Source: a virus
IMG/VR virus record: IMGVR_UViG_3300010883_000011
Span: 21,773-85,772 of that record
Strand: one strand, 5' to 3'
Length of the DNA: 64,000 bases
Shown: piece by piece, positions 7,846-59,278 of the stretch
Position numbering within the stretch: the stretch's first letter is position 1
Layout: each line of letters starts with the position of its first letter
Position numbers and translations under genes: made by a program
The notes under the pieces: generated by a model
What the model saw: only the letters and a program-made list of their open reading frames with translations
What the model was told of the DNA's origin: nothing
Database searches by the model: none

Positions 7846-7853
7846 GTATTTGA

Positions 7854-8279: not shown

Positions 8280-8284
8280 AGCGT

Positions 8285-10061: not shown

Positions 10062-10074
10062 GCCGGGGGCGCGT

Positions 10075-10299: not shown

Positions 10300-10387
10300 A
10301 CGCTTTCTACATAGACGGCGTTGCTGGCTTTTCCTGTTGCGTTACTGTGGTAGTGTCAAACCTGCCACCCGATGCCCAGGAGGTACC

Positions 10388-45288: not shown

Positions 45289-45502
45289 TAAACTTAAGTC
45301 CCGTAAATTCTGGTTTGCCTTCCTTGGCGCACTGCTTCCAATCATCGCACAGTATATGTCCGAAGATATCAACATGGATGCGGCGCTCCAACTGTCGGTT
45401 GCCGTTGTCGTGGCCTACATCTTTGGTCAGGGCTACGTCGATGGCAAGACCTCGGAGGGGGACCACTTTATCGCAGCCTCAGAGGATGACGGTGATGCGT
45501 AG
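45281..45502 (+). CDS. holin
   Basis: 73 residues; ATG 45281 with AAGGAG upstream, overlapping the endolysin by 8 bases. A charged N-terminus (LDKLKSRK) is followed by two hydrophobic segments (residues 9-23 and 32-50) and an acidic tail. Size, topology and position after an endolysin are those of a class II holin. Confidence 0.75.
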   Translation: MLDKLKSRKFWFAFLGALLPIIAQYMSEDINMDAALQLSVAVVVAYIFGQGYVDGKTSEGDHFIAASEDDGDA

Positions 45503-45743
45503 TCCAACAATCGTTTCATTTTGCGCTATCGTTGCAGTCGCTATCGGGCTGACGGCGACTGCTTGTGGTGGAGAGTCGGAAGACCCCGTACCTACTTCTG
45601 ATGAGGCTACCGAGAAAGCTGATGCGAAAGAAGAGCCAGAAGCCGACGACGGCAAGTCCGAGGAAGAAGGCGGGGACGAATCCGCAAAAGAAAGCGGCAA
45701 AGACGACGCAAAAGCAGCGACGAAGCCAACAGCGGACGAGTGA
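45495..45743 (+). CDS. small acidic lipoprotein in lysis cassette
   Basis: 82 residues, overlapping the holin gene. Residues 1-24 form a lipoprotein signal ending LTATAC, with Cys 24 the expected lipidation site. The mature part is almost entirely Glu, Asp, Lys, Ala and Ser. Position suggests an outer-membrane spanin partner, but the very acidic composition is unusual for one. A surface-exclusion lipoprotein is an alternative. A strong terminator follows. Confidence 0.6.
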   Translation: MRSPTIVSFCAIVAVAIGLTATACGGESEDPVPTSDEATEKADAKEEPEADDGKSEEEGGDESAKESGKDDAKAATKPTADE

Positions 45744-45770
45744 CGCTGAAGCTACAGCCGGTAGTTGCAT

Positions 45771-45813
45771 GGGGGGCCGCGTCCTCGACACGCGGTCCCC
45801 CACTTCCGTTTTG
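45771..45813 (+). terminator. intrinsic terminator after lysis genes
   Basis: A 12-base stem (45771-45782 with 45790-45801, one G-T pair) with a 7-base loop is followed a few bases later by TTTT. It closes the long rightward unit that carries the preQ0 and lysis genes. Confidence 0.7.
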
Positions 45814-45868
45814 ACGGCAGAAGAAATACGATACCGCAATCCGCCTGTCTGTTGATTGATTTGTGGTC

Positions 45869-45892
45869 GTGGCTGCTATAACAATTCGGAGG
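45869..45892 (+). promoter_or_regulatory. GTGGCTGCTATAAC promoter element
   Basis: GTGGCTGCTATAAC at 45869-45882 is the GTGGCTATAAC element with three extra bases. It lies between the terminator and the sulfotransferase-like gene, 16 bases before GTG 45898, with GGAGG between. Confidence 0.5.
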
Positions 45893-45897
45893 TAGAC

Positions 45898-46560
45898 GTG
45901 GCTTCAAAGTTCCTGGTCACCGGGACCGGGAGGTCCGGTACATCGCTGGTGATGCAGTTACTGACCGCTTGCGGTGCGGATACGGGGTACGCGGGTCCGT
46001 TCAAGACTTGGTACATGCCGAACATGGGAGGCATGGATCGGGATCTGCATACAAAGATGACGCCCGAAGAAGTCGCAGAGCTTCCGTCTGTCGTCAAAGA
46101 CCCACGCGCTTGTAGACGTTTACCGCACCTATTGGCGAACGGGATCTATAAACCAGACCACGTCATTGTCTGCGTCAGAGACATCCGTGAAGCCACCTTG
46201 TCCTTCATGAGCGCCAACAACATCTGGTACCCGGATGACCCGGATGACCCGGACAGCTTTCGTATGGGGAGCGTGGAGGGTGTGGGGCTGCAAAATCCTT
46301 ATACGCACATATCCGACTGGCTGCGTCAGGTTCTTGGGTCTTTGTTGGAAACGCTTGTGGTACATGACATCCCGTTCACAACCGTTGCCTTCCCTCGTTT
46401 CGTTTCCGAACCCGACTACCTGGAGAGGAGACTGTATGAGAGCGGTGTCTTCGATGCCGATGATGGCCTGTCCTACTTCTGCCCTGTCCAGACATTCCGT
46501 AAGACCTTCTCCGTCTACGCGAACACCGACAACGTAAATCTGTGGACAGATGAAAAATGA
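45898..46560 (+). CDS. sulfotransferase-like P-loop protein
   Basis: 220 residues, GTG start 6 bases after GGAGG. FLVTGTGRSGTSLVMQLL is the sulfotransferase 5'-phosphosulfate loop (a modified P-loop). VVKDPRACRRLPHLL and VIVCVRDIREATLSFM match the 3'-phosphate-binding strand and its Arg-x7-Ser type helix. Such enzymes add sulfate from PAPS to a hydroxyl or amine. The substrate is unknown; small molecule, glycan or virion component are possible. It is coupled by ATGA to a DNA methyltransferase. Confidence 0.7.
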   Translation: MASKFLVTGTGRSGTSLVMQLLTACGADTGYAGPFKTWYMPNMGGMDRDLHTKMTPEEVAELPSVVKDPRACRRLPHLLANGIYKPDHVIVCVRDIREATLSFMSANNIWYPDDPDDPDSFRMGSVEGVGLQNPYTHISDWLRQVLGSLLETLVVHDIPFTTVAFPRFVSEPDYLERRLYESGVFDADDGLSYFCPVQTFRKTFSVYANTDNVNLWTDEK

Positions 46561-48110
46561 GTAAGCGTTGGATGCTAAGACACGGCGACTGTGTAGCGGT
46601 GATGAAGCGACTGCCAGCAAATACAGTTGACGCCATCGTCTGTGACCCCCCCTATGGCCTCGCCTTCATGGGAAAGGAATTTGATTCTCTCGGGGACAGC
46701 AAGGCACAGCAGGCTTGGCACCTACGCTGGGCACGGGAGGCATTCCGAGTATTGAAACCAGGAGGAATGCTTCTGGCCTACGGTGGCACGCGCACCTACC
46801 ACCGCCTTGCCTGCGCCATTGAGGACGCTGGCTTTGAGATCCGGGACAGCATCTCCGTGCATGGATGGTCGTTTAGCCATCTGGACTGGACCTATGGTGA
46901 GGGGTTTCCCAAATCATTATCTGTTAGCAAGTCCATTGATAAACGTCTTGGGAAGAAGCGTCGTGTTGTCGGGAGCAAGCGTCTCGCTGGCAATGCGGCC
47001 ATGCCCATCTCCGATAAGGGCGGCACCTATGGGGTTGGAGTAGGCACGGCTCCAGCCAAGGACGTTCCAATCACGGTAGCCGGCTCCAAGGAAGCTGCTG
47101 CCTGGGAGGGGTGGGGCTCGCAGTTGAAACCAAGTCATGAGCCGATTTGTATGGCTCGCAAGCCGCTTGAGGGAAGCGTGGTTGACACCGTACTCAAGCA
47201 CGGCACCGGCGCGATCAACATCGATGCCTGCCGGGTACCGCACACTGGCGATGTGGACATGGACGCCGTCCAACGCCAGCAGACAGATGCCGCCATCGAC
47301 TTTGGTGGAGCAAGCGCGGGGGATGTTCTCCCTATGTATAAGCCTGGGGGTAGGTGGCCTGCGAACACGCTCATGATTCATCATCCGAATTGTACCGTGG
47401 TCGGGCTACAGCATTTCAGAACAGGCGCACCACAAGAAACCTTCGGCCCTGGCAACGCCAACGAGGTCTTTGGAGAGTTTGCAGAGGGGTTCAATCAGGC
47501 GTCACGGTACGGCGACGACAATGGCCTTGAGGCGTCCCCTGTGTGGGACTGCGTGGATGGATGCCCAATTCGGTCCATGGACGAGCAGACTGGCGTTTTG
47601 AACGGTCGTGGCAACACTAAGCCGAGCAGTGGCGGCGGCGGGATGTATGGTCACGGCAAGATCGATGTTGATTGGGGCGCGAGTGAATCGGGTGGAGCTT
47701 CCAGGTTCTTCAATCAGTTTCAGTATGAACCCGGTGAGGTTCCGTTTCTTTACCATTCGAAAGCCAGCAGAAAGGAGAGGGAGGATGGCTGCAAGGGCGT
47801 GAATCCATTGTCCGGGTCCGGGGTTGGTGGTTCAGAAGCCAGTGGCAAGGTTCACAACAACCATCCAACCGTGAAGCCGATTGGCCTGATGAAGTGGTGC
47901 GTGGACCTTTGCGTAGGGGGGAGGAGGGGAGCGTTCATCGTTGATCCGTTTGCCGGGAGCGGGACAACCGGAATCGCAGCCCTACGATCCGGGGTCCGGG
48001 TTCTCCTGATAGAAAAGGATGCCCATTATTGCGACATCATCCGACGCCGAATGGAACACGAAGAAGATCAGCAGCTACAAAAGAAAAAGAAAAGAGGACT
48101 TGACTCGTAA
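46557..48110 (+). CDS. DNA methyltransferase (N4/N6, DPPY type)
   Basis: 517 residues. Motif IV is DAIVCDPPYGLAFMGKEF near residues 25-42. FRVLKPGGMLLAYGGTRT is next. Motif I lies near the C-terminus: FIVDPFAGSGTTGIAALRSGVRVLLIEKD, preceded by HNNHPTVKPIGLMKWCV. This beta-class order matches N4-cytosine or N6-adenine methylases. The middle 250 residues, rich in Gly and His, probably recognise DNA. No restriction partner is present, so it is an orphan. Its stop codon lies inside a downstream promoter-operator. Confidence 0.9.
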   Translation: MSKRWMLRHGDCVAVMKRLPANTVDAIVCDPPYGLAFMGKEFDSLGDSKAQQAWHLRWAREAFRVLKPGGMLLAYGGTRTYHRLACAIEDAGFEIRDSISVHGWSFSHLDWTYGEGFPKSLSVSKSIDKRLGKKRRVVGSKRLAGNAAMPISDKGGTYGVGVGTAPAKDVPITVAGSKEAAAWEGWGSQLKPSHEPICMARKPLEGSVVDTVLKHGTGAINIDACRVPHTGDVDMDAVQRQQTDAAIDFGGASAGDVLPMYKPGGRWPANTLMIHHPNCTVVGLQHFRTGAPQETFGPGNANEVFGEFAEGFNQASRYGDDNGLEASPVWDCVDGCPIRSMDEQTGVLNGRGNTKPSSGGGGMYGHGKIDVDWGASESGGASRFFNQFQYEPGEVPFLYHSKASRKEREDGCKGVNPLSGSGVGGSEASGKVHNNHPTVKPIGLMKWCVDLCVGGRRGAFIVDPFAGSGTTGIAALRSGVRVLLIEKDAHYCDIIRRRMEHEEDQQLQKKKKRGLDS

Positions 48111-48128
48111 CCCTCCATAGGTTACTAT
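48100..48128 (+). promoter_or_regulatory. promoter-operator P1 (TAAC-N9-GTTA)
   Basis: TTGACT at 48100-48105, 17-base spacer, TACTAT at 48123-48128. The dyad TAAC (48108-48111) N9 GTTA (48121-48124) spans the spacer and the -10 box. The methylase stop TAA is the first half of the dyad. A CACCAACAGGGGAA leader precedes ATG 48170. Confidence 0.8.
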
Positions 48129-48169
48129 GTATATAGAAAACAGACCTCCACACCAACAGGGGAAATGCA

Positions 48170-48586
48170 ATGTCGCAAACAAGGAAACGATTGACACCGC
48201 GAGAGATTGTGGCGATTTCGAAGGCGCTGGATACCAAGCAAGTTTCAGCAGCCAGGGGTAAGCTCGACGAGAACCGCACTTACCAAGGCTCGGTTACTGT
48301 CACCGTCGACTACTCGCTTGCCGTGGGGGAGGGGTATACCCAGGAGAGGTTGGCGAAGGGTGTTGACCCGTGGGCCATCATCCACGTTCTACAAGAGAAG
48401 CTGAAAGAGGTTCAGCCGAACCACAGCACCCGCCGAACCATCAACAACGCACAACGGGTAGCTGCTAAAGCCCCGAAAGATGTCAAGCAGACTCGGAACG
48501 ACTTTCAGTCTGCCATGACCAGGGAAAACCTGACCGTCAACGTCAGCGCCCCGGCAAGCTGTAGCGCGGAGTTGACCAAGGTATGA
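48170..48586 (+). CDS. hypothetical protein, first gene behind operator P1
   Basis: 138 residues. Basic and helical at the N-terminus (RKRLTPREIVAISKALDTKQ), with a beta segment (SVTVTVDYSLAVGEG) and a Lys/Arg-rich C-terminal half. It may bind nucleic acid. It is the earliest member of the TAAC-N9-GTTA regulon in map order and is coupled by ATGA to the next gene. Confidence 0.6.
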   Translation: MSQTRKRLTPREIVAISKALDTKQVSAARGKLDENRTYQGSVTVTVDYSLAVGEGYTQERLAKGVDPWAIIHVLQEKLKEVQPNHSTRRTINNAQRVAAKAPKDVKQTRNDFQSAMTRENLTVNVSAPASCSAELTKV

Positions 48587-48801
48587 AACCCGAACACGCT
48601 CATCAGATTGTCCAGTGGCTATCAGAGAATAGAATCCACGCGTATGTCTACCATGACTACAGTGGACGCGGCATGTATGGACGCACCACGGCTGGGGTGG
48701 TGACCCACAACGTCACCGACGTTTTCGAAGCGAAGGGAGCGTTGAAGATTCACGACGACTTCGCACGCGACAGCATGGGGCTTGACGCCATTGTCTACTG
48801 A
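48583..48801 (+). CDS. hypothetical small protein
   Basis: 72 residues, ATGA-coupled. His- and Tyr-rich (AYVYHDYSGRGMYGR), with an alpha/beta pattern. No family known. Probably expressed from P1. Confidence 0.5.
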   Translation: MKPEHAHQIVQWLSENRIHAYVYHDYSGRGMYGRTTAGVVTHNVTDVFEAKGALKIHDDFARDSMGLDAIVY

Positions 48802-48823
48802 ACAAAACACCGGCGGGTTGTCT

Positions 48824-49018
48824 ATGAAGCACAACCGCGTCTTCGTGAAGCTCGCGCTCAATCGGTGGGCCTTGCCGAACGGCATCAGCGAAGCCGCCGT
48901 CAAGGAATACATGGACGAGTTTGAGCACCAGGACGGCTATGAATGCTGGATAGGGTACTTCGACGATATGAACGGTATCATCGAAGACTTCAAGCTCTAC
49001 ATTGAGCATTCCGACTAA
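48824..49018 (+). CDS. hypothetical small acidic protein
   Basis: 64 residues from ATG 48824 (a TTG at 48782 would add 14). Helical, acidic, with two Trp and the end DFKLYIEHSD. Third gene of the P1 unit. A G-tract follows the stop directly. No family known. Confidence 0.45.
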   Translation: MKHNRVFVKLALNRWALPNGISEAAVKEYMDEFEHQDGYECWIGYFDDMNGIIEDFKLYIEHSD

Positions 49019-49116
49019 GGGGGGAGAGGGGGGTGCAAGATATGGTGCGCCTGCCTACTCGACATGGCACCTGATTCCGCTATTATCAAGGTGACGTGTC
49101 TGCGCGGGAGAGCATT

Positions 49117-49422
49117 ATGTCGTTCGAATTTACGGCTGCCCACCTCGGCAAACTTGCCTCTTGGGGTCTTCCTATGGTCTTTGTCGCGGGTGGTCTTTAC
49201 ATCACTCTTGAGGCACTCGCCCATGACGTTGACAAGATCTCGGCACGCCAGGAAACGCATTTAGATCTGGAGGGGCACCCGGTATCACAGGTGCGAATCG
49301 AAGACTTGTCGACTCAACAGACAGACCTGATGCTTGAACAACGAGGAATGCGGGAAGATCTCGCAGAGCAGGCGGTGAACATTGCTGCCATTTGTCAAGC
49401 AACGGGAGCAAGCTGCCGTTGA
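49117..49422 (+). CDS. single-pass membrane protein with coiled coil
   Basis: 101 residues; ATG 49117 follows GGGAGAG. Residues 13-30 form the membrane segment (ASWGLPMVFVAGGLYITL). Residues 50-90 form a coiled coil (STQQTDLMLEQRGMREDLAEQ), and two Cys lie near the end. First of four consecutive genes with this architecture. Role unknown; spanin-like or signalling functions are possible. Confidence 0.5.
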   Translation: MSFEFTAAHLGKLASWGLPMVFVAGGLYITLEALAHDVDKISARQETHLDLEGHPVSQVRIEDLSTQQTDLMLEQRGMREDLAEQAVNIAAICQATGASCR

Positions 49423-49442
49423 GCAGGGAGGGGGGGGGATCT

Positions 49443-49796
49443 ATGGGCGATGGGTACATAGATCAACTGTTAGACTTGGGTGCGCTCGGGCTCTTTGCTA
49501 CGTTTCTGATTTGGCAGTTTATCAAGATGCAAGACCGTCTTGATAAGTTAGTCCAAGACTTCCAAGAGCAGATCCGTGAGATCGACTCGACGTATGAACG
49601 CCGCGTAGAGACTATGCGTGAGCGATACGACATTGTCATTCAGAAGTACGACGGTGAGAGGCGGCTGCTGTCTGAACGTCTTGGGCATTCGGTAGAAGAT
49701 AGCCATGATAAATTGGATCGAGCGTTAGCTAAACTGGACGAAGGCTTACGCGAGATGCGTGCCCACTATAGACGGGGGGAGGGGGTAGACAAATGA
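49443..49796 (+). CDS. single-pass membrane protein with long coiled coil
   Basis: 117 residues; a G-tract ribosome site directly precedes ATG 49443. Residues 11-26 span the membrane (LGALGLFATFLIWQFI). The rest is a charged coiled coil of about 85 residues. ATGA-coupled to the next gene. Resembles inner-membrane spanins in layout only. Confidence 0.5.
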   Translation: MGDGYIDQLLDLGALGLFATFLIWQFIKMQDRLDKLVQDFQEQIREIDSTYERRVETMRERYDIVIQKYDGERRLLSERLGHSVEDSHDKLDRALAKLDEGLREMRAHYRRGEGVDK

Positions 49797-50041
49797 AAAC
49801 GGATCCGAAGACTATATTGATCGGTGCGTTTCTGTTGGCTGCAACCGGGGCGGGGGGGTCCATGATCGGACTCACAGTGGAGCCACAGGAAACCACTGAA
49901 ATGCGTGTTAGCAACGCTATGCTTGAAACACGGAACGAGTCTCTACAAGAACAGGTTGACAGGTTGGAGGCTCGCGTAGATGTCCTGGACGGAATCGTGA
50001 AGGAATGCCAGTCAATCATCATGGCGAACCAGTCGCCGTAG
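49793..50041 (+). CDS. membrane-anchored coiled-coil protein
   Basis: 82 residues. A Gly/Ala-rich membrane segment (residues 8-27) and a coiled coil (LETRNESLQEQVDRLEARVDVLDGIV). Coupled to its neighbours; probably forms a complex with them, by inference from shared architecture. Confidence 0.5.
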   Translation: MKTDPKTILIGAFLLAATGAGGSMIGLTVEPQETTEMRVSNAMLETRNESLQEQVDRLEARVDVLDGIVKECQSIIMANQSP

Positions 50042-50049
50042 GAGAAACA

Positions 50050-50319
50050 ATGAAACGATTTACGGTTGCGTGTTTGCTTATTTGCGCGTTTGCGTATGGC
50101 CACATCGGGGGGGAGGGGGTAGCGGAGGCACAAGAGCCGTCCCTCCGAGAGCAGCTACAGGCGTGCCAGGATGAACTGCGTACCGCGAGGTCTGCGATTG
50201 AACGCATCGAGAACCCGGACGTGTTGATTCAAGCGGAGCGTATTCAGAACCTGGAACAGATGATTCAGGACGCTTATGCGACGCCGCCCGAGACACCCCC
50301 ACCCTCTTCTGACGATTAG
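50050..50319 (+). CDS. secreted coiled-coil protein
   Basis: 89 residues; AGGAG lies upstream of ATG 50050. A signal peptide (RFTVACLLICAFAYG, cleavage likely after AEA near residue 28) and a short coiled coil with one Cys. The Cys and periplasmic placement would suit an outer partner of the preceding membrane proteins. Confidence 0.5.
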   Translation: MKRFTVACLLICAFAYGHIGGEGVAEAQEPSLREQLQACQDELRTARSAIERIENPDVLIQAERIQNLEQMIQDAYATPPETPPPSSDD

Positions 50320-50438
50320 AAACAGCGGCTACAAAAGGCATACCCAGGGGGGAGGGGTATGCAGATGGTCGTCCACCTCGCCGTCCGCTATAACGGTGGT
50401 GAGGGCTCCTCAATCGTTGTGCCCCCGGAGGGCTACCC

Positions 50439-50918
50439 GTGTCCGATACCCCCACCCCCCTTCCGCACTCTGGAAACGCATCCCAAAAAAACGAAGGGGG
50501 GGGGAGGGGGGGGCACGCCCTGGACGCCACCCTCACGTCCTCCCGTGTGTGTGGTTCGTGTACGGCATGTTGCACGGTGCTGAAAGTCGACGAGATTGCC
50601 AAGGAAGAATACCAGCCGTGCGTTCACCTCAAGGCCGATTGTACCGGTTGCTCGATCTATGGTACGCGGTACGAGATATGCCGTGTGTATAAGTGCGCTT
50701 GGTTGCTCGGTGCCTGGGAAGAATCCGACCGACCGGACAAGCGAGGCGTTCTCACGCAAGAGCAGGTCGTGAACGGTGAGTGGACTGGTGCCATCGAATT
50801 CGTAGAAGTTGTCCACGGCAAGCTGGCGTCACCAGCGGTTCGAGCCATGATCGATGCGGTGAGCGGGAGCGGCTACAAGGCTATTCTAAAGGCTCGACGC
50901 TTCGTCAGCCGGGACTGA
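50439..50918 (+). CDS. Cys-rich YkgJ-like metal-cluster protein
   Basis: 159 residues, GTG start after GGAGGG. CGSCTACC near residues 38-45, then C61, CTGC (68-71) and two more Cys form the YkgJ/Fe-S-like pattern. The remainder is helical. Function of the family is unknown. Two homopolymers (seven A, then nine and eight G) lie in residues 17-27, so the N-terminus may be mis-framed or variable. A frame starting at ATG 50359 would join it by a frameshift there. Confidence 0.55.
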   Translation: MSDTPTPLPHSGNASQKNEGGGRGGHALDATLTSSRVCGSCTACCTVLKVDEIAKEEYQPCVHLKADCTGCSIYGTRYEICRVYKCAWLLGAWEESDRPDKRGVLTQEQVVNGEWTGAIEFVEVVHGKLASPAVRAMIDAVSGSGYKAILKARRFVSRD

Positions 50919-51507
50919 CACCGGATTCCAGGCCGCAGGGGCTTGTGGCGGCACCCAGGGGGTTTGCATCGGGTGTTCTTGGGAATCATGCCACGCCTTT
51001 CGCCGGGGGAATCCAAATCTCGTTCGTCCCGGAAACGCTTGTGCCGGGGTGCCTCGGGGCGGTTTCCGAATCTCGTTCGTGCGCGATCCGAATCTCGTTC
51101 GGAAAACGCTCGATTGAATTTCCTTGCGATGAAGACCACTTTTGATTCCCAGGGAAATGCGCCAGAAGTGAGAGCGAGCGAGCGTCGCGCATTCTTTGAG
51201 CGGTTGCGTCGTCTTCTTGAGCCAGCGCGTTTTCTTCGTTTGCGAAGCGCACTCTGGCCGAAACGCTCGATTGAATTTTGCTGGGTTCACTACCGGTTTT
51301 GCCCCGGGGGGGAAATGCGTTTCACTACCGGGTTTTTTCCTCTCGAATCGTTCGAGCGCAGCGGTCGCCGTGTCAAGAGCGCGTATCAGAAAGTTGCACA
51401 TCGCTCGCACCTCTCGACGCTTTCGAAGGGGCGTCTCGCCGTGTCAAGGGCGCACAAAACGCTCGAAAGCGGATGAGGGTGGATGGCGACCCGTCAAGAC
51501 CCGCGAG

Positions 51508-51872
51508 CGACTCCCATTTTCCGAGCGCATTGGCAAGGACTTTTCTGCGCCGCGCTTGCTTTTTTACAATCCGTCCACCTCGCCGAATCAGCAGCTACGA
51601 GCCGCGAGGCGACTCCCATTTCCGACGCGCATTGGCAAGGACTATTCTGCGCGAATCGAATCTTTTACATCTGGTAAAAAACCCAAGGCATCCCTCCCTA
51701 CGGGTATTATAACACGCTCAGTGTTAGAAAGGCAAGCGGCGCTCAAAAAGAAAAGCGATTTATTTTGCCGTCCACCTCGCAGAATCAGCAGCTACGAGAG
51801 CCGCGGCGACTCCCATTTTCCATGCGCGTTGGCAAGGATTTTTCTGCGCGATTCGATCTTTTTACATCTGGC
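51508..51872 (+). repeat. three-copy direct repeat of about 70 bases
   Basis: Units begin at 51508, 51610 and 51807. They share CGACTCCCATTTTCC, GCGC-TTGGCAAGGA, TTTCTGCGCGA and ACATCTGG in order. Two copies are followed by GTCCACCTCGC and AATCAGCAGCTACGAG. Confidence 0.65.
51706..51735 (-). promoter_or_regulatory. leftward promoter-operator R1
   Basis: Minus-strand TTGCCT (51735-51730), 18-base spacer, TATAAT (51711-51706). The dyad TAAC 51710-51713, N9, GTTA 51723-51726 is intact. No gene follows leftward. Confidence 0.6.
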
Positions 51873-51894
51873 CGAAATCGCAAAGCGTCACCAG

Positions 51895-51924
51895 ACGATA
51901 ACATGCCTCCGGTTAGAAAGTCAA
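51895..51924 (-). promoter_or_regulatory. leftward promoter-operator R2
   Basis: Minus-strand TTGACT (51924-51919), 18-base spacer, TATCGT. Dyad TAAC 51899-51902, GTTA 51912-51915. The expected transcript starts in GGTGACGC, as in R3-R5. Confidence 0.6.
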
Positions 51925-52091
51925 TCGCTGATTGAAAATAAAAGCGATTTCTTTTCCCGTCCACCTCGCAGAATCCGGTTAGCAGCTCCCTTCGGGTCGA
52001 CGCGAATCAGCAGCTCCGAAATCGCGCCAAGCGACCAGAATCGCAGGACAAAGGGGGACGCAGAAAAAAGATCTTTTCTTTTCGAAAAGGG

Positions 52092-52119
52092 TAGACACTA
52101 ACCCTGTCTGTGTTATTAT
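52092..52119 (+). promoter_or_regulatory. promoter-operator P2
   Basis: TAGACA 52092-52097, 16-base spacer, TATTAT 52114-52119. Dyad TAAC 52099-52102, GTTA 52112-52115. The start site is expected at or next to ATG 52126. Confidence 0.75.
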
Positions 52120-52125
52120 GTATAC

Positions 52126-52509
52126 ATGGAAGCAAGGAACACCAACCGAATCGAAGCCGCAAACACCGCAACCGCAGTGCTTTGCTACCGCCCCGAAAAC
52201 AAGAACTTTGACGCGGACAACATTATCTCCGTGGCAATCGAAGTCAGTTCTGATTGGAGCCTCTCCGAAATCCTCGCCACTGCAATCGCAAACGTCGCAG
52301 TCCCGAAGGGCTCGGCTCGCAGCGGTGTCTTCCAGGTTCAGACCGTCGAAGGCATTTTCGCACATGTCAACGAGCGAAAGATTGACCTCTCGTCCGACCG
52401 CAAGGCAGCGAAGGTTCTGTTTGCATCTTGGGCCGCCATGGCCGCTTTCGAAAACGCCAACCCCCTCTCCGAAGTCGACGCTTTCGATGCAGTCGCAAAG
52501 GCTCTCTAA
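52126..52509 (+). CDS. hypothetical cassette protein, possibly leaderless
   Basis: 127 residues. The ATG lies only 7 bases after the -10 box of P2, so the mRNA would start at the codon itself with no ribosome site, unlike every other cassette. Alpha/beta sequence with SVAIEVSSDWSLSEILATAIANVAVP and a helical C-terminus. No family known. Codon use strongly favours C-ending codons, as across the array. Confidence 0.55.
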   Translation: MEARNTNRIEAANTATAVLCYRPENKNFDADNIISVAIEVSSDWSLSEILATAIANVAVPKGSARSGVFQVQTVEGIFAHVNERKIDLSSDRKAAKVLFASWAAMAAFENANPLSEVDAFDAVAKAL

Positions 52510-52510
52510 A

Positions 52511-52690
52511 ATGGCCGACCGAATCCATCCCGCAGTCATCGAGCAAGCCCGACGCGACCGCGAGGCCGACCGCTTCGAACGCAGTCAAATCCCGCTGCAC
52601 CGCCCGCCGCCACCGCCGCCCGCTTTTGACCCGAAGCCGCAGTCCGAAAATCGGCAGCGCGGATCGGTCATCGTTGACCTTTCAATCTAA
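52511..52690 (+). CDS. hypothetical small proline-rich protein
   Basis: 59 residues, starting one base after the previous stop. A basic helix (residues 8-25), then a polyproline stretch of six Pro, then a short hydrophobic strand at the end. Unknown function. Confidence 0.5.
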   Translation: MADRIHPAVIEQARRDREADRFERSQIPLHRPPPPPPAFDPKPQSENRQRGSVIVDLSI

Positions 52691-52710
52691 CCCCAACACC
52701 AAGGCATCCC

Positions 52711-52866
52711 ATGCACCCCAACACGCACAACCGCTCTTCCAGAATCGAAGATCTGCTGCTCGACGAAGTCAACTCCCCGCTCTACCTCGGCTTCTTCAGC
52801 GCACTCACAATCGCGTATCTCGGCGGCTGGGGCTCGGTGCTGTTGCAGGTCATCGCGCTCGCGTAA
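52711..52866 (+). CDS. 51-residue single-pass membrane protein
   Basis: ATG 52711 has the cassette leader ACACCAAGGC. Residues 20-51 are hydrophobic (LGFFSALTIAYLGGWGSVLL), behind a charged N-terminus. It ends CGCGTAAGCG, like two other micro-genes of the array. Confidence 0.55.
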   Translation: MHPNTHNRSSRIEDLLLDEVNSPLYLGFFSALTIAYLGGWGSVLLQVIALA

Positions 52867-52950
52867 GCGAAAATCCAAGATTTACTCCAAGCCCCTGGGC
52901 ATGGGCTTCAACCAAACTGCCCGCCCCACCAACACCAAAAGGTGACTCCC

Positions 52951-53157
52951 ATGGTTTTGATTCGAAATCAAGTAGAATTTGCGATGCACGCAAAAGTCCA
53001 CGTTGAAGCATTCAACGCGGGTCGCACCGACGCCACGCGCTTTGTCGAAGCCGTCGCTGGTGACTGCGCCGCGCTTGTCGCGTTTCAGAATTTGTCCGAG
53101 CCTGACAAGCTCGCGCTGAATACGCTTTTCGGCGGTCCGCCGATTCTGCTGAAGTAG
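52951..53157 (+). CDS. hypothetical cassette protein
   Basis: 68 residues from ATG 52951, 8 bases after AAGG. Helical, with FVEAVAGDCAALVAFQNL and the end GGPPILLK. No family known. Confidence 0.5.
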   Translation: MVLIRNQVEFAMHAKVHVEAFNAGRTDATRFVEAVAGDCAALVAFQNLSEPDKLALNTLFGGPPILLK

Positions 53158-53318
53158 AGTCGCGCATCGCTCGACCGCCACCGCACCCCGCGCAAGCGGG
53201 GCTGCTCGCGTTTTTGCGGGTCGCGTTTGGCGGCGTCCACCTCGCAGCAGCCCGGCAAAATCCGTCCACCTCGCCACGCCATCCGAGCGGGACCATGGCG
53301 GGCGCAAGGCGTCACCAG

Positions 53319-53348
53319 ATGATAACACGCCCGCTGTTAGAAAGTCAA
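53319..53348 (-). promoter_or_regulatory. leftward promoter-operator R3
   Basis: Minus-strand TTGACT (53348-53343), 18-base spacer, TATCAT. Dyad TAAC 53323-53326, GTTA 53336-53339. Transcript would begin GGTGACGCCTTGCG and soon reach two GCGAGGTGGAC copies. Confidence 0.6.
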
Positions 53349-53409
53349 TCCCCCAAAAAGATAAAAAGCGATTTCTTTTGCGACCGGCTTTGGAGCAAGG
53401 CGTCACCCT

Positions 53410-53439
53410 ACGATAACACGCCCGCCGTTAGAAAGTCAA
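53410..53439 (-). promoter_or_regulatory. leftward promoter-operator R4
   Basis: Minus-strand TTGACT, 18-base spacer, TATCGT. Dyad TAAC 53414-53417, GTTA 53427-53430. It lies 91 bases right of R3 and repeats its surroundings, including the A/T-rich block. Confidence 0.6.
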
Positions 53440-53536
53440 TCCCGGATTGAAAAGAAAAGAGATTTCTTTTTCGCTTGACACGCGACGCGCCGCCCCGAAT
53501 CAGCAGCTACAAATCGGCCCGTCCACCTCGCCGCCC

Positions 53537-53553
53537 TAACATAGAACGCGTTA
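53537..53553. promoter_or_regulatory. isolated operator dyad O7
   Basis: TAAC 53537-53540, N9, GTTA 53550-53553. No -10 box on either strand, although a TTGACC lies on the minus strand at the right distance for a -35. Likely a degenerate or accessory repressor site. Confidence 0.5.
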
Positions 53554-53627
53554 GCGGTCAAGGATTATTCTGCTCTTTAGCAGCTCCAGGGCTGAAAAAG
53601 AAAAATGCATTATTCGCAAAATAAGTG

Positions 53628-53655
53628 GAGACTCTAACCTTCGTTGGGTTATAAT
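53628..53655 (+). promoter_or_regulatory. promoter-operator P3
   Basis: GAGACT 53628-53633, 16-base spacer, TATAAT 53650-53655. Dyad TAACC...GGTTA (53635-53651) is extended by one pair. An A-rich upstream block with TTCGCAAAATAAGT precedes. Confidence 0.8.
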
Positions 53656-53716
53656 GTATGTACTGAAGGGGGAGACAGAAACCCTCCAAAGTACCAACCC
53701 CAACAAGGACAATCAA

Positions 53717-54112
53717 ATGTATTCCGAAATGAACCGCAGCGACCTCCGCACCGCCCTCGCAGCCGCAGGCATCGAAGGCGTCAACCGCAACAGCAAGGCC
53801 GCCATGGCCGATGCACTGACCGCCCACGACGCTGCCACCGCGAAGCCGGCTCGCTCGCCTCGCATGACCCGCGCTGACATGGCGCAGGTGCTGAAGGGCT
53901 TTATCGGCCGCAAAAAGTCCGTTGTCGTGGAAATCGCCGAAGTCGCCGCTGCTGGCATCTGTCGCTCCGGTACCCTCTACCACGAATATTGGAGTTCCTC
54001 CGACAACACCGGATTCAAGGCCGCTGCGCTGATTGGCTGTACCGCGACCCGCGTTGTCAAGAATCCCGCCACTGGCGAAGCGGGGGTTTGCCTCGTTCTG
54101 ACCCGCTCGTAG
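53717..54112 (+). CDS. hypothetical cassette protein with SAP/HeH-like N-terminus
   Basis: 131 residues; CAACAAGGAC precedes ATG 53717. Residues 4-40 (MNRSDLRTALAAAGIEGVNRNSKAAMADALTAH) resemble a SAP/HeH helix-extended-helix, a small DNA-binding motif. RMTRADMAQVLKGFIGRKK may be a second helical unit. The C-terminus is beta-rich. A DNA-binding role is an inference; it is not clearly the array's repressor. Confidence 0.55.
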   Translation: MYSEMNRSDLRTALAAAGIEGVNRNSKAAMADALTAHDAATAKPARSPRMTRADMAQVLKGFIGRKKSVVVEIAEVAAAGICRSGTLYHEYWSSSDNTGFKAAALIGCTATRVVKNPATGEAGVCLVLTRS

Positions 54113-54236
54113 CGAATCGGGTTCCGGGCGGTCCCGTCAAAACCGCCCCGCTTCCAAGTAGCATCGCATCGGGCGGTGCTACCCGGAAGCGGCCAAATCG
54201 GTCGCTTTACCCCAACACTCCAACAAGGCAAAAATC

Positions 54237-54305
54237 ATGTTCGCGCTTATCCTGGTCCCCTACGTTTCTTTGGCAATCTTTGCGGCATCGCTCGCCACCG
54301 CGTAA
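54237..54305 (+). CDS. 22-residue hydrophobic micro-protein
   Basis: ATG 54237 follows the CCAACAAGGC leader and ends GCGTAAGCG. The whole peptide (FALILVPYVSLAIFAASLATA) is one membrane helix. Leader and ending match the other array genes, which supports translation. Confidence 0.45.
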   Translation: MFALILVPYVSLAIFAASLATA

Positions 54306-54475
54306 GCGGCAATCCCAAATCCCGCGCCTCGGCTTCGTCCGGGGCGCGGCTCGTTTTGCCTTCGCACTTCGGGTCCGTCCACCTCGCACGCCGACCCGCG
54401 ACCCGTCCACCTCGCAGGCCGAATCAGCAGCTACAAATCGGCCCGGAAAAAGATTGCGCTTTCGCAAAATAAGTG

Positions 54476-54503
54476 GAGACTCTAACGCAGTCTGTGTTAC
54501 TAT
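54476..54503 (+). promoter_or_regulatory. promoter-operator P4
   Basis: GAGACT, 16-base spacer, TACTAT 54498-54503. Dyad TAAC 54483-54486, GTTA 54496-54499. Preceded by AATCAGCAGCTAC and an A-rich block. Confidence 0.8.
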
Positions 54504-54528
54504 GTAGATACCAACAAGGGAGTTCAAC

Positions 54529-54777
54529 ATGGCAAACGCACTCAACATCGCACAGGTCTTTCAGGCCGCGTTCGGCGACGACAACACCGCACCCGGTTTC
54601 TTCTACCGCGTCGGCGACGCAGCGGGTCTGTCGAGCCGCCAAATGATGTCTTTCGGTCGCTGGTCCGTCGACACCGAATGCGGCGCGGCTTGCGAAATCG
54701 CAATCCACGAAGCCGTCGCCGATGGCCGCAACGCCTTCGACGCCATGACCGCAATCGCCACGCTGGTTCTCGGATAA
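54529..54777 (+). CDS. hypothetical cassette protein
   Basis: 82 residues, leader CAACAAGGGAG. Helical, acidic (VFQAAFGDDNTAPGFFYRVGDAAGL ... CEIAIHEAVADGRNAFDAM). No family known. Followed by a second gene in the same cassette. Confidence 0.55.
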   Translation: MANALNIAQVFQAAFGDDNTAPGFFYRVGDAAGLSSRQMMSFGRWSVDTECGAACEIAIHEAVADGRNAFDAMTAIATLVLG

Positions 54778-54803
54778 TCTAAACCAACAACAAGGGGCAA
54801 ACC

Positions 54804-55004
54804 ATGTCAAACACGCACCATTTGATTCTGACCTATACCGATCCAGATACGGGCGTCGAAGTCCGGCTTGGCTTTGATGATGGCGACCCGCGCCGGGTCC
54901 ACTGCATTAACAGCGACCGCACCGAAGCCTTTTCAGCGTCGCTTGACGAGGCACTCGATTCGCTGCTGGCTCGATGGCCGGACCTGAAATACGCAATCGA
55001 TTGA
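54804..55004 (+). CDS. hypothetical cassette protein
   Basis: 66 residues, leader CAACAAGGGG. Strand-rich first half (HHLILTYTDPDTGVEVRLGFDDG) and helical, acidic end (LDEALDSLLARWPDL). No family known. Confidence 0.55.
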   Translation: MSNTHHLILTYTDPDTGVEVRLGFDDGDPRRVHCINSDRTEAFSASLDEALDSLLARWPDLKYAID

Positions 55005-55168
55005 GTCGCACTTCAGGGCTGCTCGACCCGCTCGCGCTTCGGCTCGGGCGGCTTCGGGCGTTTTTGCCTCGCGCATCGAGCCCGTCCACCTCGCACGGCC
55101 CCGCCAAAATCCGTCCACCTCGCGTTTGCGATTGCGGCCGATCTGGTTTTTTCGCAAGGCGTCACCTT

Positions 55169-55198
55169 ATCATAACATGCCTCCGGTTAGATAGCTCC
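55169..55198 (-). promoter_or_regulatory. leftward promoter-operator R5
   Basis: Dyad TAAC 55173-55176, GTTA 55186-55189; minus-strand -10 TATGAT. The -35 (about 55193-55198) is poor. Transcript would begin GGTGACGCCTTGCG and pass two GCGAGGTGGAC copies. Confidence 0.5.
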
Positions 55199-55263
55199 GC
55201 CTGAATCAAAAGAATCAGCAGCTACCTCGTGCGAAAAAGATCGCACTTTTCGCAAAATAAGTA

Positions 55264-55291
55264 GAGATTCTAACGCACACGGTGTTATAAT
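55264..55291 (+). promoter_or_regulatory. promoter-operator P5
   Basis: GAGATT, 16-base spacer, TATAAT 55286-55291. Dyad TAAC 55271-55274, GTTA 55284-55287. Confidence 0.8.
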
Positions 55292-55317
55292 GTATGTATA
55301 CCAACAAGGAGAACCAG

Positions 55318-55506
55318 ATGACCAACCGCAACATCGAAATCCCGACCGACGTTCAGAACGACAACACCGTGCAGGATGCAGCGTGGCGACTGCGCCAAGC
55401 CATCGACTCCCACGGCGAAGGTCACCCGATTGTGGTCAAGCGCGAAGCCCAGCTACAAAGCTGGATTGACCATTCCAGGGCCGCTACAATCTTTCGAAAT
55501 AGTTAG
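55318..55506 (+). CDS. hypothetical cassette protein
   Basis: 62 residues; CAACAAGGAG precedes ATG 55318. Helical, with DAAWRLRQAIDSHGEGHPIVVKREAQLQSWIDHSR. Its last codons lie inside the upstream block of P6, so coding and control overlap. No family known. Confidence 0.55.
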   Translation: MTNRNIEIPTDVQNDNTVQDAAWRLRQAIDSHGEGHPIVVKREAQLQSWIDHSRAATIFRNS

Positions 55507-55533
55507 AGACTCTAACGCAGACTGTGTTACTAT
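55506..55533 (+). promoter_or_regulatory. promoter-operator P6
   Basis: GAGACT 55506-55511, 16-base spacer, TACTAT 55528-55533. Dyad TAAC 55513-55516, GTTA 55526-55529. The preceding gene's stop ends where the -35 begins. Confidence 0.8.
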
Positions 55534-55558
55534 GTAGATACCAACAAGGGAGAGCGCA

Positions 55559-55876
55559 ATGACCACTCACTTTCACTCTTACGAAGCCAACGAGCGGCAC
55601 GAAGCCGCCATGCTGATCTGTGCCCCGACGGGGCAAAACAACGCTGCCCGCGCATTGGTCGGTCGAGCCATCCGCAAGGCGCTCGGTGTCAAGCGTTGGA
55701 ACGAAGGCATCCACTTCGTCGACTACCTGCCTGCCGGGTACGGCTACCCCGACGCCGACGCGCGATTCATGGTCAACGTCACCGACGCCGAAATGACGCG
55801 ACTCATGACCACGCTGACCGCGATGGCCGAAGCCGAGGGCTGGGACCGCCCGCCATGCGACGCATATCACGACTGA
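55559..55876 (+). CDS. hypothetical cassette protein
   Basis: 105 residues, leader CAACAAGGGAG. Mixed alpha/beta: a His-rich N-terminus (THFHSYEANERHEAAM), GRAIRKALGVKRWNEGIHFVDYLP, then a helix and acidic C-terminus. No family known. Confidence 0.55.
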   Translation: MTTHFHSYEANERHEAAMLICAPTGQNNAARALVGRAIRKALGVKRWNEGIHFVDYLPAGYGYPDADARFMVNVTDAEMTRLMTTLTAMAEAEGWDRPPCDAYHD

Positions 55877-55957
55877 TTCTGGTCGGTCCACCTCGCAGGG
55901 CGCGTTGGCAGCGCCTGCGAGGCGCAAAATAAAAATGCACTTTTCTCAAAATAAAGG

Positions 55958-55985
55958 GAGACTCTAACGCACATGCGGTTATAAT
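55958..55985 (+). promoter_or_regulatory. promoter-operator P7
   Basis: GAGACT, 16-base spacer, TATAAT 55980-55985. Dyad TAAC 55965-55968, GTTA 55978-55981. Confidence 0.8.
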
Positions 55986-56011
55986 GTATGTACCAACAAG
56001 GAGAACACAAC

Positions 56012-56257
56012 ATGGCAAACCGCAACCCCAACCGCCTCTTCCTCATCGTTCACCCCGAAGTCGACCCGCAGGCTCCAGGCAGCGAGGGTATGTCAGCAGC
56101 GTTCGAACGCAACAGCGACGGCGAAATCCTCCGCACCCGCAACATTGAAACCGCCCGCAAGTGGCGCGACCGCCGCAACGAAGGCGTGGACCTCGGCGAG
56201 CCCCTTTTCTTCATCCTCGCAATCACCGCCGATGGCAGTCAGCAGCGAGCCGCGTAA
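56012..56257 (+). CDS. hypothetical cassette protein
   Basis: 81 residues; CAACAAGGAG precedes ATG 56012. RLFLIVHPEVDPQAPGSEGM, then a charged helix (IETARKWRDRRNEGVDLGE) and a terminal strand LFFILAITADG. It ends GCGTAAGCG. No family known. Confidence 0.55.
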   Translation: MANRNPNRLFLIVHPEVDPQAPGSEGMSAAFERNSDGEILRTRNIETARKWRDRRNEGVDLGEPLFFILAITADGSQQRAA

Positions 56258-56328
56258 GCGACGCACCGGCCCCGTCCACCTCGGGCGGGGTCACCCCAAC
56301 ACCAACCCCAACAGCAAAAGGCAACACC

Positions 56329-56604
56329 ATGCGAATCACATCGACCGGACCCCGAATCGTCCGCACCCCGTTTCAGCGGGCCAATATGCCCTACCTTCTG
56401 GTCATCGATTCCGAAGGCTTTGTGCGATATCGCATTGACAAAGCCGCAAACGGCCTCGCCGCCAAAGCCCCGTTCCGAATCTACCGCACCGATGCTTCGG
56501 GTAGGTACCACGGGCGGGCACTCACTCTCGTTGGATACGCAAAGGGCATTGCCGATGCTCGGCGACAGGCAGAGGCACTTCCGCTGGATAGCCTCGGCCG
56601 ATAG
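56329..56604 (+). CDS. hypothetical cassette protein
   Basis: 91 residues, ATG 56329 after AAAAGGC. Alpha/beta: YLLVIDSEGFVRYRID, PFRIYRTDASGRYHGRALTLVGYAKG, then a helix with ADARRQAEAL. Basic. Second gene of its cassette. No family known. Confidence 0.55.
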   Translation: MRITSTGPRIVRTPFQRANMPYLLVIDSEGFVRYRIDKAANGLAAKAPFRIYRTDASGRYHGRALTLVGYAKGIADARRQAEALPLDSLGR

Positions 56605-56748
56605 CGACGCACCCAAGCTGCTGACCCCGCTCGATTCAATCGGGCGGGGCTTCGGTGGTTTTGTCCACCTCGCGGACCCGGCGCAGAATCCGTCCACCTC
56701 GCAGAACCGCGTGCGAGCCGCTGCTCGTTTTTCGAGAACCGTCACCCT

Positions 56749-56778
56749 ATCATAACATGCCCCGTGTTAGAAATCTCC
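56749..56778 (-). promoter_or_regulatory. leftward promoter-operator R6
   Basis: Dyad TAAC 56753-56756, GTTA 56766-56769; minus-strand -10 TATGAT. The -35 is weak. Two GCGAGGTGGAC copies lie leftward within 90 bases. Confidence 0.5.
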
Positions 56779-56878
56779 ACCGAAAGCACGAAAAGTTTTG
56801 GCGTCCACCTCGCCCCAGATGGCGCGTTTCAGCAGCTACAGGCCGCAAAAGAAAAATGCACTTTTCGCCAAATAAGTA

Positions 56879-56906
56879 GAGACTATAACCGACCCTGGGT
56901 TATAAT
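56879..56906 (+). promoter_or_regulatory. promoter-operator P8
   Basis: GAGACT, 16-base spacer, TATAAT 56901-56906. Dyad TAACC...GGTTA (56886-56902). Confidence 0.8.
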
Positions 56907-56936
56907 ACATGTATACCAACCAACAAGGGAGTTCAC

Positions 56937-57377
56937 ATGGCAAAGGCAAACGAAAACAACCGGGGCAATAACAGGAACGGAAGCAACTGGATCCGCAAGG
57001 ACCTGCGCTTGGCCATCTACCTGCGGGACAACATGACCTGCGTGTTCTGTAAGACCCACGCCGACAACACGACGCTGACGCTTGACCACGTCGTGTCCCG
57101 CTCCGAGGGCGGGTCCAATGGGACCCCGAATCTGGTGACCGCGTGTCGCTCGTGCAACAGCAGCCGCCAAGACATGCCCATTGCCGACTTCGCAGCCCGC
57201 TTCGACGGCGCAGCCCAACGGGTCGCCACCGCAATCAGCACGACGCGGATCGAAATGGTTGACTACCGCAACACCGCGAAGGGCATGTACGCCGACCCCG
57301 CAGAGAAGGCCAAGATCGACGCGATGCGAGCACGGGCTTCCTGTTCCTGGAAGTCCGAGCACGCGTGGCGCAAGTAG
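56937..57377 (+). CDS. HNH endonuclease
   Basis: 146 residues; CAACAAGGGAG precedes ATG 56937. LRLAIYLRDNMTCVFCKTHADN, then LTLDHVVSRSEGGSNGTPNLVTACRSCNSSRQ is a textbook HNH domain, with CxxC pairs for the structural zinc and DHV, N and the final CNSSR for catalysis. Its place among promoter-driven small genes rather than beside terL suggests a homing-type or host-DNA-attacking nuclease, not the packaging HNH. This is inference. Confidence 0.85.
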   Translation: MAKANENNRGNNRNGSNWIRKDLRLAIYLRDNMTCVFCKTHADNTTLTLDHVVSRSEGGSNGTPNLVTACRSCNSSRQDMPIADFAARFDGAAQRVATAISTTRIEMVDYRNTAKGMYADPAEKAKIDAMRARASCSWKSEHAWRK

Positions 57378-57450
57378 CAGCGGCCTCGCGGCTCGGTCCA
57401 CCTCGCGGGCCGAGCCGCAAAATCAATCTACACTTTTCGCCAAATAAGTA

Positions 57451-57478
57451 GAGACTATAACCTGCCCTGGGTTATAAT
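57451..57478 (+). promoter_or_regulatory. promoter-operator P9
   Basis: GAGACT, 16-base spacer, TATAAT 57473-57478. Dyad TAACC...GGTTA (57458-57474). Nearly identical to P8 over 45 bases. Confidence 0.8.
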
Positions 57479-57512
57479 ACATACAACACCAACCCCCAAC
57501 AAGGCGAACAAC

Positions 57513-57620
57513 ATGACCCCCTTCATCGCAATGACTTGGTACCTCGCAACTTGGACCATTGGCGCACTCAGCGGCGTCGCAATCTACGGTGCAGCCACCT
57601 CTCGCAGCGCACGTCGCTAA
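57513..57620 (+). CDS. 35-residue membrane micro-protein
   Basis: Leader CCAACAAGGCG before ATG 57513. One membrane segment (WYLATWTIGALSGVAIYGAA) with a basic tail SRSARR. First gene behind P9. Confidence 0.5.
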   Translation: MTPFIAMTWYLATWTIGALSGVAIYGAATSRSARR

Positions 57621-57631
57621 AGGCAATCCCC

Positions 57632-58060
57632 ATGGCAAAACGAATCCCCATCCCTTGCTCGTCGTGCGACCGCCAATGTCTCGGTCGACGCACGACCCGT
57701 GGCACCCCGCGAATCCTTCGCCTGTCCGAAGTCAGCCGTTCGGCCATCTCGTCCGAGCCTGTCTGCCTCAACTGCTCGTGGCAACACCAAGCCGCGATCC
57801 TCCGCTGCGATACCGTCGCCGACTTGGAAGCCCTCAAGGCCGACCCGTCCATAGCTGCTCGTTTTCTGATCGACTCCCTTCAGGGGGACGCCGACAGGCT
57901 TCGCCAAATCGAAGGCCGGCTTGCTGCCGAGGTCTATGCGAGCAGGCACGAGCACGCCAGGGCAGTGGCACAGGCGAGCGACGAGCCACTGCTGCCACAA
58001 ATCCCCGTGCCATGCGAGCATTGCCTCTATGTCGAATGCGCCTGCAACGTCGCCGATTGA
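57632..58060 (+). CDS. Cys-rich zinc-finger-like cassette protein
   Basis: 142 residues from ATG 57632. N-terminal CSSCDRQC and CLNC, and C-terminal CEHCLYVECAC, give two cysteine clusters flanking a helical middle (DLEALKADPSIAARFLIDSLQGDADRLRQIEGRL). Likely metal-binding; no family named. Last gene of the array, followed by a terminator hairpin. Confidence 0.55.
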   Translation: MAKRIPIPCSSCDRQCLGRRTTRGTPRILRLSEVSRSAISSEPVCLNCSWQHQAAILRCDTVADLEALKADPSIAARFLIDSLQGDADRLRQIEGRLAAEVYASRHEHARAVAQASDEPLLPQIPVPCEHCLYVECACNVAD

Positions 58061-58068
58061 CTCGCGTG

Positions 58069-58715
58069 CTCAATAGTTGAACACGGCCCCGCGACTCTCT
58101 ATCAGGGTAGCGGGGCCGCTCTTCGTTTGACCCACGCATCGGTCCACCTCGCCCACGCAGATTGACCACGCACCACGGACCAAACAATTTCGGGCGTTTA
58201 GCGGAGACATGGGGGCTGAATAGTGGTAGGGGGACAGTCCCGAGGTCCGATGGACCGCCCCAGAAAACAGCGAACCCGCGCACGAGCAAGGGCGTCGCTG
58301 CTGGTAGTGAGTGGGTCTGCGCGTGTTCAATAGTTGAACAGGCCGCGCATGGGGCATGGGGCACGCGAAAACTTTTGGCGCACTTCGTTTGTGCCTCGCG
58401 CTTGGCCCGTTGCGTCGCTGTCCACCTCGCCATGGCTTGGGCGTCGACTGTCCACCTCGCTGCGAAGGTTCGAAGCGTCCACCTCGTTTGGTCCACCTCG
58501 CAGATTTCTGGCGTCGAGCGACGCTCAATACGCGGTCGAGCCGGGGCGCATGGGGCGTCGCACTTCGTTGCGCTGCTGCATGGGCGGTGCGTCGCATTGA
58601 ATGGGCATGGGGGCGCGGGCAGTCCCCAAAAGGAAACGCGGTGCATGGGGTGCGAGCGTGTTGCTCGATTTGTAGCTGCTGATTGATTGTCGTCGAGCCT
58701 GCTCAATAGTTGAAC
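58069..58715. repeat. three copies of a GTTCAATAGTTGAAC palindrome
   Basis: The full 15-base palindrome is at 58325-58339; copies lacking the first pair (CTCAATAGTTGAAC) are at 58069-58082 and 58702-58715. Flanks GCGTG or GCCTG and ACACG are partly shared. They are spaced 256 and 377 bases and could be protein-binding sites. Confidence 0.65.
58084..58128 (+). terminator. terminator-like hairpin at the end of the cassette array
   Basis: CGGCCCCGC (58084-58092) pairs with 58110-58118 across 17 bases, followed by CTCTTCGTTT. It directly follows the last cassette gene. Confidence 0.55.
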
Positions 58716-59278
58716 ACGCACCAGCATGGCCCATGGGTCTTGGCGTCGCGCTTCGCTGTGCCCTGGGCTGGCTGGGCCGCTGTCCACCTCGCAGCCTTGT
58801 CCACCTCGCCGCTTCGCTCGCCGCTGCGCGACGCACACCGCTCGCTCGTGCGCTCTTGACACGTCGCCTTTCACGCCACAAAGTCCAGTCAAGATTTTCG
58901 GACAGTGCGTCGTTCATTTATGCCCAACGCTCTTCAGCGCAAAAGTGTATCGCTTTCTTGCACACGCAATTTTGCCGTGCTTCGTGCGACGCACCGACGC
59001 AATTTGTCACAACGCTTTGCAACCGCGCTCCTTTTGACCCAACTTTGTGCGCCGCTTTCTAAGTGCCTGCTATCACTCACCTTTTTCGGCGCTCTCTTCG
59101 CAAGTGCGTCGCACCCCCACCGCACCAAGTTTTCGCGCTCTTCGTTTATTACCTGTAGGAGTCCTCTCGCGCAGTGCCTCACCAAAATACCGACTTGGAT
59201 TTTTTGTAAAAAACGCGGGGGTGCGCGAGTATCTGCGTGGGGTGTGAGTGGGTTATGATGCTGGAGGAGGAAAACCCT
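58129..59278. other. gene-free region upstream of terminase genes
   Basis: About 1.15 kb with no convincing gene. It holds seven exact GTCCACCTCGC copies plus one with a mismatch, two of the three palindromes, many GCATGGGG words, and to the right a C/T-rich stretch ending in a T6-GT-A6 hairpin near 59200. Frames open here match nothing. The position before terL makes a packaging or replication origin plausible. Confidence 0.5.

Follow-up and report, generated by a model that had tools for sequence, protein, structure and literature searches.

A symmetric TAAC-N9-GTTA dyad embedded in the early promoters of an uncultured bacteriophage, and a candidate Cro-like regulator

The uncultured bacteriophage record IMGVR_UViG_3300010883_000011 (85,772 bases) contains a symmetric element, TAAC-N9-GTTA, that is carried by nearly all recognisable early promoters of the phage. 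The window analysed here is the stretch of 64,000 nucleotides covering bases 21,773–85,772 of the record; positions refer to it unless the record is named, and the left arm of the record, outside the window, was fetched as well. Judged from its sequence, the dyad is probably the operator of a phage-encoded dimeric repressor of the Cro/XRE type, most likely a helix-turn-helix (HTH) protein of 108 amino acids, which would shut off the early genes.

The window contains exactly 16 copies of the dyad, between 48108 and 57474, as an earlier sequence-only reading had claimed. Dinucleotide shuffles of the window give 0.29 ± 0.62 expected copies and at most 4. Extending the scan to the full genome, a check proposed by that reading, raises the count to 20, far above chance, with four further exact copies at record positions 1868, 9120, 10518, and 12730. 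The pattern read backwards, used as a control, has no match in the record. The constancy of the 9-base gap is also borne out: in a scan of gaps of 0–20 bases over the record, a gap of 9 gives 20 matches and the remaining gaps together give one. When all four-letter dyads with gaps of 0–15 are compared, the enrichment of the TAAC-N9 dyad in the window is well above that of any other, and it ranks first in the left arm too. The shuffle enrichment and the gap scan rule out a chance origin. Next to the fixed letters, both half-sites disfavour T at position 5 and A at position 6, each occurring in just 1 of 40 cases, and the N9 segment shows no extra palindromy (26 complementary pairs versus 26.1 expected). 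A literature text search did not find the string TAAC-N9-GTTA, which is weak evidence of novelty because most subscription papers lay outside its scope.

With respect to predicted genes, 15 of the 16 window dyads are intergenic, and the dyad at 48108 overlaps the final three bases of one gene. Fifteen of the 16 adopt a fixed register, in which a sigma-70-type −10 box begins with the last TA of the dyad. The dyads thus span the spacer and the −10 box, as first described, and their division into nine rightward promoters, six leftward promoters, and one isolated site (53537) holds as well. The −10-like boxes read TATAAT, TACTAT, TATTAT, TATCAT, TATCGT, or TATGAT, and recognisable −35 boxes sit 16–18 bp upstream of them. 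Most rightward promoters have a TRGAGA-like −35 box at 18 bp; the leftward promoters at 55173 and 56753 have poor ones. Each rightward promoter is followed by a predicted open reading frame (ORF) that starts 11–66 bases past the dyad, the last ORF being just 35 amino acids long. The six leftward promoters face DNA without convincing genes. Over the whole record, 17 of the 20 exact dyads are located at promoters.

Many of the dyad sites are descendants of duplicated cassettes, not 16 independent inventions, and the rightward cassettes have long flanks in common. However, among nine diverged representatives with unrelated flanks and in both orientations, of which one has a mismatch in the dyad, little is conserved apart from the dyad letters and a portion of the −10 box. 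Conservation of the dyad is therefore not mere copying, and promoter duplication alone is ruled out.

The left arm contains dyad promoters in the fixed register of the window sites and equal in quality to any of them. Its leftward genes span the record from about 12.6 kb to 0.36 kb. The dyad at record 9120 lies in TTGACA-17-TACAAT before a gene for a vWA-domain protein, and that at record 10518 lies in TTGACC-17-TACTAT before a gene for a MoxR-type AAA ATPase; these two genes (record 7583–10460, minus strand) are the first behind the left-arm dyad promoters. A promoter at record 6854 carries a dyad with one mismatch. No promoter accompanies the exact dyads at record 1868, which lies within a gene, and record 12730, which is flanked by divergent genes.

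The sequence-only reading saw no obvious repressor gene in the window and advised a search for HTH proteins. Consistent with this, the best candidate is encoded outside, about 18.4 kb to the left of the window, in the leftward gene block. An HTH_3 search of the whole record gives a single match, at record 3190–3264 on the minus strand, inside the 108-residue ORF at record 3076–3399 (minus). The gene adjoins that of a sigma-70-like protein with a sigma-70 region 2. Profile matches of the 108-residue protein are weak but consistent, and comprise YdaS, HTH_3, P22_Cro, and phage transcriptional repressors. An AlphaFold2 model built from four sequences (the single-sequence fold is poor) contains helices at residues 26–40, 46–53, 57–65, and 74–83 and a hairpin formed by residues 86–91 and 94–99, with a confidence of about 82–91 in the blocks of the HTH part and 71.9 overall. 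Foldseek searches with this model return HipB, C.Kpn2I, ClgR, and P2 C among others, all with weak E-values. We regard the protein as a single-domain, Cro-like HTH candidate of the Cro/XRE type. No convincing match to it was found among GenBank phages.

Related phages were fetched via the terminase, and the relatives G005, G008, G010, and G011, used here, are 51–62% identical. Homologues of the HTH protein are encoded by G010 (60% identity), G005 (48%), and G011 (37%). The HTH and sigma homologues are direct neighbours in G010; in G005 about 0.7 kb separates them. In G011, the promoter TTGACA-ACTAACCAAAGCAAGGT-TATAAT is located directly before the HTH homologue, contains an exact dyad in register, and is the top-scoring promoter of that record. 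The putative operator is thus present at the promoter of the candidate regulator's own gene in this relative. MoxR homologues are found in G005 and G010. Like the MoxR gene of the present record, the one in G010 follows a promoter of the dyad type, TTGCAG-TTCTAACCAAATTTGTGG-TATAAT, in which 7 of the 8 letters are retained with the register unchanged; G010 has a second site of the 7/8 form. G008 contains one promoter with an exact dyad, a strong promoter that keeps 7 of 8 letters in register, another with TAGC-N9-GTTA just upstream of the −10 box, and three TAAC-N7-GYTA promoters versus 0.01 expected. At a given promoter, a full match of the six free letters has a chance probability of about 3e-4, and a match of at least five about 6e-3. 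No clear dyad promoters were found in G004. MoxR and portal proteins used as queries among viral contigs gave no relatives, and an IMG/VR scan with a strict promoter-plus-dyad pattern was uninformative, with at least 120 matches that are mostly single sites in AT-rich contigs. Another HTH protein, matching HTH_23 (record 19875–20603, 242 amino acids, encoded among virion genes), is an unlikely regulator, as its homologues occur in G004 and G005, both of which lack clear dyad promoters. Separately, G005 (IMGVR_UViG_3300006923_000018, 76.3 kb) is enriched in TTAA pairs at spacings of 3 and 10 (26 versus 2.4 expected for each), suggesting a TTAA array with a 7-bp period.

From this arrangement we infer a simple circuit. 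Each dimer, bound to its dyad, would keep RNA polymerase off a single promoter, in the manner of lambda CI and Cro acting on OR1 and OL1. The early promoters would fire, the repressor would accumulate, and all early units would then close together, including the promoters that feed the repressor's own gene. With the HTH gene placed behind dyad promoters in the leftward block, such delayed negative feedback is the simplest reading. A role in directing later transcription may fall to the sigma-like protein of the phage. A Cro-like, lytic shut-off of early genes fits better than prophage silencing because neither an integrase nor a CI-type repressor was found: a search of the whole record yielded no tyrosine integrase, and the protein families listed for it include no serine recombinase and no S24/CI-type repressor. 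The original proposal of a dimeric repressor silencing all units together is accordingly kept in part. It remains likely that many units share a symmetric operator recognised by a dimeric DNA-binding protein, but the temperate, prophage-silencing frame is not supported, given that no tyrosine integrase was found and that the only HTH_3 match is a single-domain Cro-like protein. Collective silencing is better read as early-gene shut-off that includes the repressor's own gene block. A more tentative extension, which we find possible without favouring it, is that the phage is strictly lytic and that the adjacent sigma-like and Cro-like gene pair runs a genome-wide early-to-late switch. About 18 early promoters, among them the six leftward ones that seemingly make untranslated RNAs, would be closed by way of a single operator embedded in each.

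Several observations weigh against a Cro-like repressor acting at the dyads. The HTH profile scores of the 108-residue protein are under the curated cut-offs, and the fold matches are weak. In this record its gene is at least 3.5 kb from the nearest dyad promoter, and dyad promoters reach it only from that distance upstream in the leftward block. G005 has no clear dyad promoters despite its 48% HTH homologue, and no HTH homologue was found in G008, a genome fragment. The sequence alone is also compatible with activation in place of repression. An activator, for example a MerR-like protein acting on the spacer, might bind the dyad, or the dyad might assist a phage factor in opening promoters of the early or middle phase. 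Like MerR sites, the dyad has its centre in the spacer, and several promoters have poor −35 boxes. However, MerR promoters have spacers of 19–20 bp, and those at recognisable boxes here are 16–18 bp, which argues against MerR-type spacer activation; the best promoters, at record 9120 and in G011, are close enough to consensus to work unaided, and the candidate protein is Cro-like. We consider an activator very improbable. It is scarcely credible that promoter preference and cassette duplication alone account for the dyad, without a protein of its own. The long common flanks of the rightward cassettes and a tandem 91-bp duplicate among the leftward promoters point that way, as does the occurrence of the promoter pattern, dyad included, singly in many other viral contigs. 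This is countered by the unrelated-flank representatives described above, by the position of TAAC within the spacer, outside both hexamers, and by strong promoter-like sites in G005 and G004 that have no dyad.

Alternatively, the phage could be temperate or a recent virulent derivative, with the dyads serving as immunity operators to keep lytic promoters silent in the lysogen and either the 108-residue protein or an undetected one as the repressor. The best-known examples of large, genome-wide operator regulons come from temperate phages, and the record has a ParB-like family match, with no ParA among the families listed. Mycobacteriophage D29 is regarded as a lytic phage that arose by deletion from a temperate parent (PMC5712189). 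We nevertheless find this unlikely. The combination expected of temperate immunity, namely integrase or partition genes together with a CI-type repressor that has a C-terminal oligomerisation domain, was not found in the searches of the record or among the families listed for it. The genome is probably near complete, and searches of bacterial genomes returned no relative of either the HTH or the sigma-like protein. Distinctly unlikely is a host regulator that binds the dyad and is exploited by the phage, for instance to tie early expression to the state of the host. The dyad promoters are of the host sigma-70 type, but an exact dyad is present at the promoter of the HTH gene of G011 itself, and the dyad variants shift between related phages, which is what a co-evolving regulator encoded by the phage would lead one to expect.

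The nine rightward dyads (plus strand) are distributed as follows. The dyad TAACCCTCCATAGGTTA (48108–48124) lies in TTGACT-17-TACTAT (48100–48128) before the ORF at 48170. The next (52099–52115) lies in TAGACA-16-TATTAT (52092–52119), where an ORF start at 52126 would give a nearly leaderless mRNA. Two dyads are in TGGAGA promoters with 18-bp spacers, one with TATAAT (dyad 53635–53651, promoter 53626–53655) before ORF 53717 and one with TACTAT (54483–54499) before ORF 54529. TAGAGA-18-TATAAT is found at three dyads: 55271–55287 (promoter 55262–55291) before ORF 55318, 56886–56902 (56877–56906) before the HNH endonuclease-like ORF 56937, and 57458–57474 (57449–57478) before the 35-residue ORF 57513. 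The remaining two are in TAGAGA-18-TACTAT (55513–55529) before ORF 55559 and GGGAGA-18-TATAAT (55965–55981) before ORF 56012.

On the minus strand, dyads are contained in TTGCCT-18-TATAAT (dyad 51710–51726, promoter 51735–51706), TTGACT-18-TATCGT (51899–51915, 51924–51895), and TTGACT-18-TATCAT (53323–53339, 53348–53319). The last has a tandem 91-bp duplicate, TTGACT-18-TATCGT (53414–53430, 53439–53410). The other two leftward dyads, at 55173–55189 and 56753–56769, have a weak −35 box and the −10 box TATGAT. The isolated dyad (53537–53553) has a leftward TTGACC at 17 bp, and its −10 position reads TAGGGC. With a good −35 box and no −10 box, this site is possibly a leftward promoter that has decayed. 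Downstream of four of the six leftward promoters (51.1–56.8 kb, minus strand) come a common GGTGACGCCTTGC-like start and at least two GCGAGGTGGAC motifs or a variant. Without convincing ORFs, these stretches may give rise to untranslated RNAs; an Rfam scan of the window from 48 to 64 kb found no RNA family.

Two other repeats occur near the dyads. GTCCACCTCGC is present in 23 copies at 45111–58808, mostly at 51.5–58.8 kb and all on the plus strand. Almost all copies are intergenic, often paired after terminators, making it a directional intergenic repeat. It is absent from eight related records, and a single opposite-strand 10-mer copy is found at record 12785. A similar asymmetric, oriented repeat was reported in phages T1 and Stevie, where its role is not known (PMC4319613). 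CAGCAGCTAC has seven plus-strand copies at 48069–56839, usually near GTCCACCTCGC and upstream of rightward promoters.

The record encodes a terminase, portal, SU10-like capsid, primase/helicase, DnaB, Sak4, DNA methyltransferases, and endolysin. A GTP cyclohydrolase, QueC, QueD, QueE, and queuine-transferase set suggests deazaguanine DNA modification. The record ends (window 63300–64000 and record 1–350) are G-rich and repetitive and overlap by 102 bp at 87% identity. Because they overlap, though imperfectly, the genome is probably nearly complete; the overlap suggests that it closes on itself, and its IMG/VR class is linear.

A lytic-looking phage in which it apparently takes only one tiny Cro-like protein to read about 18 single operators offers a clean, testable case of global early-gene shut-off, and the dyads and candidate protein form a ready set of repressor–operator parts. 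Operator drift can be traced across related uncultured phages through TAAC-N9-GTTA, TAAC-N9-GGTA, and TAAC-N7-GYTA. The closest likeness is to lambda, whose geometry was checked on the lambda record. At OR1 (PR) and OL1 (PL), as here, a 17-bp symmetric site lies between the −35 and −10 boxes and overlaps the start of the −10 box, the symmetric, promoter-overlapping arrangement typical of Cro/CI-type operators. Lambda uses a dimeric HTH repressor of the Cro/CI type, and such a protein is the candidate here. However, the dyad is shifted 2 bp upstream relative to the −10 box, its half-site is TAAC instead of TATC/TACC, single operators replace the triplets of lambda, about 18 promoters are involved instead of two, and CI, integrase, and lysogeny genes were not found. 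L5 and other cluster A mycobacteriophages likewise have many sites genome-wide for one repressor, but these are asymmetric 13-mers, bound by a monomer in a direction-dependent manner and often away from promoters (PMC9283540). The sites described here are symmetric 17-mers located mostly at promoters and are thus not stoperators; the sequence-only reading, which likened them to temperate operator and stoperator systems, had itself noted the symmetry of the site as a difference. In phage P1, many dispersed promoter operators are also under one repressor, C1, but these operators lack symmetry, and C1, the immunity repressor of a temperate plasmid prophage, is a larger protein. By analogy, the dyad regulon would work like lambda Cro or CI at single operators, while its genome-wide extent recalls L5 and P1.

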